51,341 bases of DNA from Bacteroidota bacterium (GTDB lineage Bacteria > Bacteroidota > Bacteroidia > AKYH767-A > 2013-40CM-41-45): positions 130,590-181,930 of the forward strand of contig QQVM01000009.1 of the NCBI GenBank assembly GCA_003389385.1. The letters run 5' to 3'. How positions within the stretch are numbered: position 1 is the stretch's first letter; each line of letters opens with the position of its first letter. The notes beneath the pieces were generated by a model, which was not told where the DNA came from, did not search any database, and saw nothing but the letters and a program-made list of their open reading frames with translations. This document shows, piece after piece, positions 48,275-51,220 of the stretch. Position numbers and translations under genes: made by a program.

Positions 48275-48391
48275 GGTCCTGCTTGTCCTTCAGAGCAGCT
48301 TGATGCGACGAAGTACCGCCTACGCTAAAGCTACAGTTGGCAGGGAGGTCAAACCACCTGGTGGTTGACACAGCGGTTCAAATCCGCTATA
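48275..48391 (+). pseudogene. decayed/interrupted tRNA-Cys-like copy
   Basis: It starts with the same GGTCCTG acceptor end as the intact tRNA-Cys and ends with an almost identical T-arm (CAGCGGTTCAAATCCGCT versus CAGCGGTTCGAATCCGCT), and shares GGCAG and AGGTC blocks near the anticodon region. The middle is replaced by about 50 bp with no cloverleaf, and no complementary acceptor 3' strand follows (ATAAAA). It lacks the GCA anticodon. Probably an old tandem copy of tRNA-Cys broken by an insertion. Confidence 0.55.
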
Positions 48392-48404: not shown

Positions 48405-48475
48405 GGTCCTGTGGCCGAGTGGCTAGGCAGAGGTCTGCAAAACCTTGTACAGCGGTTCGAATCCGCTCGGGACCT
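48405..48475 (+). tRNA. tRNA-Cys(GCA)
   Basis: 71 nt: acceptor GGTCCTG/CGGGACC, anticodon loop CTGCAAA (anticodon GCA), T-arm AGCGGTTCGAATCCGCT, and discriminator U73, which is an identity element of tRNA-Cys. CCA is not encoded. Its last 12 bases and the next 3 are repeated at 48661-48675. Confidence 0.93.
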
Positions 48476-48478
48476 CAA
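48464..48478 (+). repeat. att-like direct repeat, left copy (tRNA-Cys 3' end)
   Basis: CGCTCGGGACCTCAA, covering the tRNA-Cys 3' T-stem, acceptor strand, discriminator and three flanking bases. An identical copy is at 48661-48675. Confidence 0.75.
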
Positions 48479-48480
48479 TA

Positions 48481-48608
48481 AATGAAAAGCCCCGTCCGCC
48501 ATTTGGCGGGCGGGGTTTTATTTTATTCCAGGCAGATCAAAGCAAGCTTTGACTGCCTGGAATAAAATAAAACCAGGCTGCGAAGCAGCACTGGGGCTTA
48601 TTCATTTT
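48481..48608. repeat. four-armed palindromic element
   Basis: Nested inverted repeats: outer arms AATGAAAAGCCCC / GGGGCTTATTCATT; side hairpin 1 GTCCGCC-ATTT-GGCGGGC; long inner stem from GGTTTTATTTTATTCC with AGGCAG and TCAAAGC, paired with GCTTTGA, CTGCCT and GGAATAAAATAAAACC; side hairpin 2 GGCTGC-GAA-GCAGC. The half at 48485-48519 also serves as the tRNA terminator. It sits inside the att-like duplication and encodes nothing. Confidence 0.75.
48485..48519 (+). terminator. terminator of tRNA-Cys
   Basis: AAAAGCCCCGTCCGCC, loop ATTT, GGCGGGCGGGGTTTT: a strong GC-rich stem with T-rich tail starting 10 bp after the tRNA. It is the left part of the four-armed palindrome. Confidence 0.85.
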
Positions 48609-48660
48609 GACTTTAGCTGCAATGCGGATCATGGAATAATCCCTGCCTGCAGCAAGCAGG

Positions 48661-48675
48661 CGCTCGGGACCTCAA
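48661..48675 (+). repeat. att-like direct repeat, right copy
   Basis: Exact copy of CGCTCGGGACCTCAA from the tRNA-Cys 3' end, 197 bp downstream, with no tRNA body attached. This is the typical footprint of site-specific integration into a tRNA gene. Confidence 0.75.
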
Positions 48676-48686
48676 GTTTCATCCCA

Positions 48687-48761
48687 TTAGGGTTCGTTAG
48701 GCTTCTTTAGGCTAAAACGGGCCCTTCTGCTTTTCATTAGGGCTCGTTAGGAGCCGTTAGG
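48687..48761 (+). repeat. helically phased TTAGG array
   Basis: TTAGG begins at 48687, 48697, 48707, 48737, 48747 and 48757: two groups of three with exact 10-bp spacing, and 50 bp from group to group, so all six lie on one face of the helix. Units resemble TTCGTTAGGC/CTCGTTAGGA. The position right after the att-like repeat suggests arm-type recombinase or regulator sites. Confidence 0.65.
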
Positions 48762-48771
48762 AGACACAACT

Positions 48772-48814
48772 GATTCGCTGTAGATTCGCTGATAGCCCAA
48801 GGAACGATTCGCTG
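48772..48814 (+). repeat. three GATTCGCTG direct repeats
   Basis: Exact 9-mers at 48772, 48783 and 48806 (spacing 11 and 23 bp), directly after the TTAGG array and before the left inverted repeat of the RES cassette. No gene overlaps them. Confidence 0.6.
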
Positions 48815-48900
48815 GACGAAAGTGTCTGCGGAAAAAAGGCGGGTGGCAGCAAGATTTCTTCGGATGAAATTTTGAAATTATTCAAAGCCAATGAGCCTTG

Positions 48901-48950
48901 AACAGTGGATGAATATCCACGGCTCAAAGGTAACGGACGAATGTTCGTCG
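48901..48950 (+). repeat. left inverted repeat of the RES cassette
   Basis: 50-bp element made of two palindromes, GTGGATGAATATCCAC (48905-48920) and GACGAATGTTCGTC (48936-48949). The reverse complement of 50120-50169 matches it at 43 of 50 positions without gaps. Confidence 0.85.
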
Positions 48951-49051
48951 AAACTTCGTTAGTTTTTTAAAATGTATAGCACATGGAAAATGGCTGACAG
49001 GTTCGACGCAGCAGGGTTATTAAATGTAGTTAAGTACTCTTATATTGTGGT

Positions 49052-50041
49052 ATGTCGTTAAGCGATTCTATTAATTCTATACCTGACTTAGAGGAGTACA
49101 AAAAGCTATTGGACAAGTTATTCCAAAGGACCAGGACAATGACTGTCGTCGATGAAATAGGAAATTTGTTTTATGATACAGTGCGGATCAACCTCAAAAT
49201 GGTTAGGCTACTACCACAACAGGCCGCAAACAATTTCTATGTCTACAGATCCCGAGAAATTAAAAAAGAGCTCACTGCTAATCTTTCGTCTGTGGGGACA
49301 TTTGCCTATCCTCCGTCTTCTGATTGCACGGAGAACGGGCGATTGAACTTAGCGGGGTATCCTGCATTCTATGGTTCAGACCAAGTTAGTACTGCTTTAG
49401 CCGAAACCCATCTAACCGAGGCTTGTGTTCGGTTTTTAAGTGTATGGTCTATTAGCTCGCCCGAAGATGTTGGATCTTCGTCATTCCTGACGAAGCAACT
49501 GCCGGAAAGAAATTTGTGGAAAATGTTTGTTCCGAGCAACTACAATGAGATGATAAAGATGGCAAGAAAGACTGCTCCCGATAAAATACCACAACTTGAA
49601 TACGGGTACAATTGGATAAACCGTCTTTTCGAAATTGAGAACGAACCTTATCCGCTGACGTCCTGCCTAGGTCATGACTTGCTTTATCAAACAAATGCAA
49701 TGATACAGATGGGAGCGATCTTCAAGAGAGCAAAGGTCAATCTGGTAATTTATCCCAGTTATGTCACAAGAAGAAATACCTGCAACATTGCTATAAACCC
49801 AGGCTTTGTTAATAGGCACATGAGACTGCTCCGAGTTTATAGGCTTTACATCTCAAATGTCACTGGTGATAATTTCAGTTATGAGGTAATGAGTGTGGGA
49901 ATAAGAGATAGAAATCATATATCTTGGCACGAGGCTACGGAACAAGAAAAGATAGACGGAATAAAAACTCCACGCAAAATAAAGGGGAAACTCGTTTGGG
50001 TTCCAACTAAAAAACAGATTCCTCAAGACGGAGCCCGGTAG
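49052..50041 (+). CDS. RES-domain protein (NAD-degrading toxin family), no adjacent antitoxin
   Basis: 329 residues. About 60 N-terminal residues precede a RES domain recognised by FYVYRSRE (Arg66), GRLNLAGYPAFYGSD (Tyr107), TALAETH (Glu118) and a C-terminal VIYPSYVTRRNTCNIAINP (Ser236, Asn245), matching the Arg/Tyr/Glu/Ser pattern of RES toxins. RES toxins of Xre-RES systems degrade NAD+. The protein is about twice the length of typical RES toxins. No Xre/Mbc-type antitoxin gene is present on either side; the preceding 375 bp carry only repeats. It is enclosed by 50-bp inverted repeats. Immunity, if needed, must be encoded elsewhere, or the protein is inactive or conditionally active. Confidence 0.78.
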   Translation: MSLSDSINSIPDLEEYKKLLDKLFQRTRTMTVVDEIGNLFYDTVRINLKMVRLLPQQAANNFYVYRSREIKKELTANLSSVGTFAYPPSSDCTENGRLNLAGYPAFYGSDQVSTALAETHLTEACVRFLSVWSISSPEDVGSSSFLTKQLPERNLWKMFVPSNYNEMIKMARKTAPDKIPQLEYGYNWINRLFEIENEPYPLTSCLGHDLLYQTNAMIQMGAIFKRAKVNLVIYPSYVTRRNTCNIAINPGFVNRHMRLLRVYRLYISNVTGDNFSYEVMSVGIRDRNHISWHEATEQEKIDGIKTPRKIKGKLVWVPTKKQIPQDGAR

Positions 50042-50119
50042 CACGTAATGTACACTACTGCTCTTCTCCCCTGCTGTGACGGACTTACTTCCCCTTTCTT
50101 TCAAAACGTGGAGCTGATC

Positions 50120-50169
50120 CGACGGACATTCGTCCCTTGTTTTTGAGTGGTGGATATTCATCCACTGTT
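50120..50169 (-). repeat. right inverted repeat of the RES cassette
   Basis: Inverted, 86%-identical copy of 48901-48950, with the palindromes GACGGACATTCGTC and GTGGATATTCATCCAC. The unit bounded by the two repeats is about 1.27 kb and contains only the RES gene. The rest of the 50042-50356 gap shows no gene. Confidence 0.85.
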
Positions 50170-50356
50170 AACCACTCATCGACTTTCATAAAGTAATGCA
50201 CAATGTAAATGATTTTAATTTCATAGCCGGCACAAAACAACCATTCATTTATAACATCAAATAATATCTTGACAGGAAATGTCAAAGGCTATTGCCCGGA
50301 AAATATCACTGGGCGGCGAAAACCATTAAATTGTTTTGCACTATCATTAATGATTC

Positions 50357-50839
50357 CTACCTCAAAATCGTTATCAACTTCTTATTAATATAAAGCTGAT
50401 ATTTCCCCAACCCCTGATGTTGCAGGAATTTATTTTCTGTCAACTGTTTTAAGTAACGGGTCGCTGTTGTGTAGTGAATGTCCATCAGGCTACCGAGTTT
50501 TACCGGTGTAATAATTGGGAATGAGAACAAAATCTCAGCCAAATCGGAAGAATAAATATTCGGACATTTTTTTTTGATGTCAATTTTATATAGGTACAGA
50601 AGGTCTCGTACTTTTAGTAATTGTTCTTTCGTTTCCTTCGCCTGTAGATAAAAACCCCGAAGCATGTACTCGATGTACTCGCACCAATTCCCTTCCTCGC
50701 TTACTTGTTTGAGTAAACGATAATATTCAGCACGGTTACGATTAATATATCCACTGATGAATAAGATTGGATAATGAAGCAATTGCCCCGCTCGGCGGAA
50801 TGTTTGCGTGTAGGCCGGAACGTAGGGGCATTCCGCCAC
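50357..50839 (-). pseudogene. Fic-family protein fragment (C-terminal half only)
   Basis: 160 codons. From about residue 18 it matches the C-terminal half of Fic proteins (LLHYPILFISGYINRNRAEY, then WCEYIEYMLRGF and AKETKEQLLKV), then a winged-helix domain (SLMDIHYTTATRYLKQLTEN). The catalytic HPFxDGNGR core and the N-terminal domains, which should lie upstream, are missing. The first 17 codons (MAECPYVPAYTQTFRR) fall inside a REP-like hairpin, so the gene was cut there. AMP-transfer activity is lost; the remaining winged helix might still bind DNA. Confidence 0.75.
50794..50837. repeat. REP-like hairpin at the break in the Fic gene
   Basis: GGCGGAATG (50794-50802) and CATTCCGCC (50829-50837) are perfect inverted arms; the loop holds two GTAG tetranucleotides (GTGTAGGCC, ACGTAGGGG). 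GTAG next to a short palindrome is the mark of REP elements moved by RAYT transposases, and a RAYT-like gene starts 108 bp away. Confidence 0.6.
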
Positions 50840-50944: not shown

Positions 50945-51220
50945 ATGCCATATGCTTATCAAATTCACAAGCAGGAAGCCGCTTATTTCATGACCCTTAC
51001 TTCGATTGATTGGGTTGATATATTTACAAGGGACTCATACAAACAACTGCTCTGTGATAGCCTGAATTATTGCGTTGAAAAGAAAGGGCTTGAAATATTT
51101 TGCTATATCATTATGACCAGCCACATGCACATGTTTGCAAGAGCAAAAAATTATGATCCCCCGCTGCGCAGGATTTGCAATCAGTACTGTTCGAAACAAT
51201 CATCAACATTTGAATTTTGA
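50945..51220 (+). pseudogene. truncated REP-associated (Y1/HUH) transposase, RAYT-like
   Basis: 91 codons. The N-terminus fits the family (YQIHKQEAAYFMTLTSIDWV, DIFTRDSYKQLLCDSLNYC), and YIIMTSHMHMFARA contains the HUH pair His60-Met-His62. The family is about 170-190 residues; here the frame ends soon after residue 80 with a diverged DPPLRRICNQYCSKQ, so the catalytic Tyr helix is gone. An IS4-like gene begins 52 bp further on, suggesting that IS insertion removed the rest. Confidence 0.7.

Follow-up and report, generated by a model that had tools for sequence, protein, structure and literature searches.

The RES-domain gene near the end of the window, by which we mean the whole analyzed stretch of 51,341 nucleotides (positions 130590-181930 of contig C10 in genome G000, ending at the contig end), is flanked by two inverted copies of a two-hairpin repeat. 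These arms belong to a low-copy, dispersed REP-like family in which single copies are the rule. We think it probable that they are orphan REP-like units, spread singly by a cognate RAYT and now flanking a RES gene that came with a genomic island. The original prediction had seen in the arrangement a mobile 1.27-kb toxin cassette, and this proposal did not hold up well: the unit was found once, the RES homologues found lack such repeats, and the repeat usually occurs alone. The striking picture of a gene held between inverted double palindromes is thus explainable by a low-copy Bacteroidota REP-like family.

Positions 48901-48950 and the reverse complement of 50120-50169 are identical at 43 of 50 positions without a gap, as had been noticed from the letters. 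The homology reaches further outward, to 48884-48950 (left unit, plus strand) and 50120-50186 (right unit, inverted, minus strand), with 81% identity in 67 nt (E 2.3e-11 in a search of the entire own genome), and 48884 and 50186 are better outer limits of the pair than 48901 and 50169. An ungapped extension of the homology covers 88 nt at 74% identity, and the distance between the arms is 1127 nt. DNA folding gives two hairpins per arm, a bulged one and a second one, in agreement with the two palindromes originally described. In the left arm, hairpin 1 (approximately 48893-48925) consists of the outer stem GAGCC/GGCTC, a 7-nt bulge and the inner stem GTGGAT/ATCCAC, and hairpin 2 lies at approximately 48933-48948. 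In the right arm, hairpin 1 (approximately 50145-50177) has the outer stem GAGTG/CACTC, and hairpin 2 (approximately 50122-50137) is terminator-like on the plus strand behind the RES gene. The left arm folds with a z-score of -4.45 (0 of 200 shuffles equally good) and the right arm with -2.94 (2 of 200). A copy of the repeat from the related genome G003, folded alone, gives -1.80 (14 of 200), and a cluster on contig C8 of the own genome that contains a partial copy gives 0.58 (143 of 200).

The stems vary in a manner consistent with a conserved fold. The outer stem of hairpin 1 differs between the left and right arms by two compensated pairs and reads GAGCT/AGTTC in the G003 copy, and at the inner pair of hairpin 2 seven copies have C-G and two have T-A. 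In an alignment of nine copies, which omits five G002 copies with a different hairpin 2 and in which stem 1 was scored on three of the nine rows, 92.9% of 99 cells are paired, and both-sided changes occupy five cells on three pairs. When the stem partners were slid by 1-3 columns, 21-48% of the cells still paired. Among 500 shuffles, none matched the both-sided changes by cell count, 18 did so by pair count and 100 by pair types, in a test in which related sequences can exceed shuffles without any structure. A reading of the arms as coding remnants was rejected because a stop interrupts the frame of the left arm (by reading) and a fold accounts better for the compensated changes in the stems; the right arm lies inside a 66-aa minus-strand ORF with no Pfam match. 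Hairpin 2 of each arm also has a terminator-like score for transcripts that run out of the RES gene, although the six terminator-like sites are a weak excess over a shuffle mean of 2.7 (sd 2.1).

The alternative offered in the original prediction, a dispersed palindrome family, was borne out. The own genome contains three copies: besides the arms themselves there is a partial one at C8:107640-107684, in which the 5' arm of hairpin 1 is missing. G003 has two, on C43 and C168 (one search gave three match places), and three genome-wide searches of G002 gave 16 distinct places, six of which are 23 nt or shorter. No copy was found in G010, the genome of the same genus. Matches at E up to 1 occur in nine of the 11 genomes of the family sample, and matches at E up to 0.05 in eight of 42 genomes; where these were approximately 15-30 nt long and came from genomes other than G000, G002 and G003, they were taken as chance, as were matches of 14-25 nt on C7, C17 and C2 of the own genome, the one on C7 being borderline (25 nt, 88%, E 0.04). 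An exact pattern scan of genome_contigs returned 11 stretches; three belong to a single uncultured Bacteroidetes bin, and the other eight come from scattered taxa, near the estimated chance level; the scan of viral_contigs returned one stretch. The second G003 copy (L100:1501-1595) has an extra palindrome, CCTGCCTGC...GCAGGCAGG, in the loop of hairpin 1.

Pairs of facing repeats are scarce. No facing pair within 3 kb occurs among the 16 places in G002, where the distances between opposite-strand neighbors on the same contig are 5.4 and 7.1 kb. The G002 stretches that were fetched gave three more local hits outside these places. One of them, a weak match at C113 (approximately 53989-54016, minus strand, 28 nt, hairpin 2 only, E 0.01 in a small local database), would form a pair with the full copy at C113:56284 around a 613-aa gene, in the orientation opposite to that of the RES pair, but this match is absent from the genome-wide searches; the other two hits are at C113 (approximately 41922) and C59 (approximately 18267). 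The distribution that had been named in advance as contrary to a cassette, repeats that are everywhere single with no inverted pairs, is therefore largely what is seen, the one weak facing pair in G002 being the exception.

Hairpins of a comparable kind have been described for the Bacteroidetes TnpA-Y1 subclass 2.6, whose members, according to the part of the source available, carry a WQ and YIHQNP signature and are flanked by atypical hairpins without a GT[AG]G foot, with copies elsewhere in the genome (PMC6006769). The window repeat resembles these in its atypical form, in the absence of the foot, in having copies elsewhere in the genome, and in that one copy lies beside a RAYT with this signature: the C43 copy of G003 begins 37 nt behind the stop codon of an intact 197-aa RAYT in which WQ and YIHQNP can be made out by eye. 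It departs from the published outline, as far as the available portion goes, in the very few copies in its own genome, where no cognate RAYT was found, and in the HuH motif of the G003 RAYT, which is SHMH rather than NH[LIV]H; the likeness is one of motif reading, not of profile. The link between the repeat and a RAYT comes from this one locus, and no repeat was seen upstream of the G003 RAYT on a contig that starts 128 nt before the gene. Unlike canonical GTAG REPs, the window repeat has no unpaired GT[AG]G foot at its 5' side; GTGG is present but within the paired inner stem. In the aligned copies, hairpin 2 is followed by CGTCG, part of which lies within the stem; CGTC-tagged REPs are defined by an unpaired CGTC tag at one end, a stem of 8-9 bp and a loop of 4-5 nt. 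The longer, wholly or partly self-complementary inverted repeats beside Y1 transposase genes, termed TIRtrons or double palindromic TIRs, are similar in form to the arms in the accessible part of their description (PMC3733652), but the gene between the window repeats encodes a RES protein and not a transposase.

A RAYT had been proposed as the enzyme that moves the RES gene, since one lies nearby. This gene (50945-51220, plus strand), 758 nt beyond the right arm, encodes a 91-aa N-terminal fragment that matches NCBIfam REP_Tyr_transpos with an E-value of 6.3e-11, below the curated cut-off, and has no match in PHROGs. The HuH part is present (SHMH), and the fragment ends before the tyrosine motif, as judged by reading. 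Over 66-71 residues it is 58-61% identical to the RAYTs of C11 in the own genome and of G007, and 53% identical to the G003 RAYT. Because it is truncated and closer to RAYTs that accompany other repeats, the nearby helper appears broken and is probably not cognate to the repeat of the arms, so that its candidacy as mover lapses. RAYT matches occur in 11 of the 42 genomes of the order. In the own genome they are found at three places, two on C11 (one with an internal TAG) and the window fragment. The C11 RAYTs are approximately 42-43% identical to that of G003 and carry their own, different repeats; the arm-type repeat gave no match at these two loci, and no intact RAYT flanked by it was found in the own genome. 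Inverted repeats that flank the RAYT on both sides, with their arms approximately 560-950 nt apart, were seen at seven of the ten loci examined in the order; in this search the locus L036 is represented by the best 5 of 58 pairs, and the pair at L035 (30 nt, 80%) may be chance. A weak palindrome upstream of the window RAYT fragment (50794-50837, no strand assigned) does not fold above shuffles (z -0.37), and 12 nt from 50786 (CCCCGCTCGGCG) recur in the repeat that accompanies a different RAYT in the own genome.

As originally read, the RES gene is the only one between the arms. It is the sole ORF there with a match to a known family: at 49052-50041 on the plus strand it encodes 329 aa and hits Pfam RES with an E-value of 2.1e-7, which passes the curated cut-off. 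The smaller ORFs tested between the arms have no Pfam match. RES toxins (Xre-RES systems) degrade NAD+, in agreement with published abstracts. An alignment with other RES proteins shows that R66/R68, E118 and S236 are kept, S236 in five of five rows and the R and E residues in all four rows that cover them. The structure model of the protein is weak (pLDDT 57, pTM 0.57); searched with Foldseek it finds NatT first (E 0.017), and after re-alignment with VIA-align RES toxins occupy all of the top eight rows, with Z from 8.6 down to 6.4, diphtheria toxin being next (6.0). The RES domain and these residues are shared with ParT, VPA0770, the P. putida RES protein, NatT and MbcT, whose fold the protein may also have, to judge by the weak model, and it probably keeps their NAD-cleaving activity. 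It differs from these toxins in its length of 329 aa, with approximately 60 residues preceding the RES fold, and in having no recognized antitoxin gene adjoining it. A Pfam search with nine small ORFs around the gene, which covers families known to Pfam, gave nothing up to E 1, and no ORF longer than 60 aa lies between the upstream tRNA-Cys gene and the RES gene. A sequence-profile search of the PDB gave no match up to E 1, and neither PADLOC nor PHROGs gave any.

Relatives of the RES protein are rare and distant. Homologues occur in two of the 42 genomes of the order and in four of 395 in a sample of the phylum (the own genome is counted in both), at 26-36% identity. Nine of ten other genomes of the family have no match, and the tenth, G006, has a distant fragment. 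A search for relatives in genome_contigs and viral_contigs gave no result, the protein has no match in plasmids and phages, and the stretch 48884-50186 has none as DNA in phages and plasmids. Hairpin repeats of the window kind are absent around the homologues of G426 and G006, whose flanks contain just AT-rich arms of 24-25 nt at 75-76% identity that look like chance. The occurrence of RES genes in relatives without the repeats, which had been put forward as evidence against a cassette, is thus largely seen for the homologues found, but these are too distant to represent the same gene in the same place.

The surroundings of the gene suggest an origin at a tRNA locus. A tRNA-Cys (GCA) gene at 48405-48476 (plus strand), the only Rfam match that passes its gathering score, is probably an integration site. 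Thirteen nucleotides of its 3' end (48465-48477) recur 197 nt downstream, at 48662-48674 on the plus strand, as a putative att-like copy. Between G003 and the stretch 48405-48836 there is an alignment of 72% identity, and parts of the stretch align with G009 and G007, directly behind tRNA-Cys. RES and the repeats are absent from that G003 contig (4013 bases), in a genome that is 85% complete, and in G010 the tRNA-Cys gene is followed by protease-like, reverse-transcriptase-like and other genes, as judged by reading. The tRNA-Cys gene looks like an integration hotspot, and a patchwork island, or the debris of one, appears to have its edge here; such an island at tRNA-Cys would have brought the RES gene. 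The search for empty sites in relatives, suggested with the original prediction, gave no clean one for the arm-to-arm unit, because the flank past 48836 does not align.

Several smaller features lie in the same region. A piece of the T-arm is present upstream of the tRNA-Cys gene, at 48375, and the 13-nt copy is followed by iterated 8-mers with the words GATTCGCT and CGTTAGGA; related words occur behind tRNA-Cys in other genera. On the far side of the RES gene, a C-terminal fragment of a Fic-type protein with a SoFic-like C-terminal domain (50357-50839, minus strand) is cut off near the weak palindrome and adjoins the RAYT fragment, and in G003 a different Fic fragment adjoins the RAYT and its repeat. 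Just behind the window RAYT fragment, the last nucleotides before the contig end (51273-51341) appear, by reading, to be the start of an insertion-sequence transposase gene.

In the course of events that we favor, a cognate RAYT would have copied single units, acting on single-stranded hairpins, and two of these would have ended up in opposite orientation on either side of the RES gene, in its two spacers; the gene itself may have arrived with the island at tRNA-Cys. The present role of the arms is most likely confined to the locus, as hairpins or putative terminators at both edges of the gene. When three copies were placed at random in a crude model with 2925 slots, a neighboring inverted pair arose in approximately 0.1% of trials, so that local clustering or an old event at the locus is needed in addition, and the low chance keeps gene capture under consideration. 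Clustering of the repeat is indeed seen on C8 (L074:3560-3840), where the partial copy, hairpin-2-like pieces (one found by BLAST, one by reading) and a repeat of the C11-RAYT type lie within approximately 200 nt. It is unlikely, even with this cluster as a precedent, that an inverted local duplication of one unit, or clustering of repeats, simply left the RES gene between the arms by chance; the arms differ by 19% and show compensated stem changes, so any duplication must be old. Quite unlikely in our estimate is a former REP-RAYT-REP locus (REPtron) in which the RES gene replaced the RAYT. Inverted repeats around RAYTs are common in the order, with approximately 560-950 nt between the arms at the seven loci against 1127 nt here, and RAYT debris lies nearby, but this debris is outside the arm pair and closer to other RAYTs, and in G003 the RAYT borders its repeat on the hairpin-1 side, whereas both arms turn their hairpin-2 side to the RES gene.

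A mobile insertion cassette consists of two inverted ends around a non-transposase gene, an outline that the window unit shares; it differs from such cassettes in that neither an element of origin nor another copy of the unit nor an empty site was found. That the arms are the ends of a non-autonomous RES element, mobilized in trans by a RAYT or a related Y1 enzyme, would agree with the bracketing of a single RES gene by inverted, folded repeats, with the rarity of their inverted pairing under random placement, and with the scarcity of RES in a variable place. We nevertheless regard it as very unlikely: the own genome has the unit at a single location, the RAYT of the window is truncated, the two other RAYTs of that genome are approximately 42-43% identical to the G003 enzyme and have other repeats, the arms are 19% diverged and no clean empty site was found. 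No target duplication was seen by eye; to our knowledge, IS200/IS605-type enzymes make none, and its absence is therefore a weak point of evidence. REP-RAYT loci, moreover, do not appear to transpose as units, in so far as the available part of the published survey covers this (PMC6006769), and among the matches listed in our literature searches, with sources available in part, there was no description of a non-transposase gene held between REP units. The most specific form of the proposal, in which a RAYT acting in trans, now or formerly, would cut out the single-stranded DNA that lies between facing repeats and insert it again, here with a toxin gene, appears highly improbable. If it were true, the unit would be a cargo-bearing REPIN-like element and RAYTs would move genes and not repeats alone; trans-mobilization of the RES element would, more generally, give RAYTs a role in gene transfer.

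With the arms understood as singly spread REP-like units, the locus adds a two-hairpin repeat family with visible compensated changes, tied to a RAYT in one relative, and a branch of RES proteins of which two homologues adjoin restriction-modification-like genes. In G426 (region L054:50-2238) the RES gene overlaps the end of a TaqI_C-type gene, and in G006 (region L112:7646-11427) the RES fragment adjoins an HTH gene and methyltransferase-like genes, with functions by reading. These neighborhoods hint at a defense role for this RES branch.
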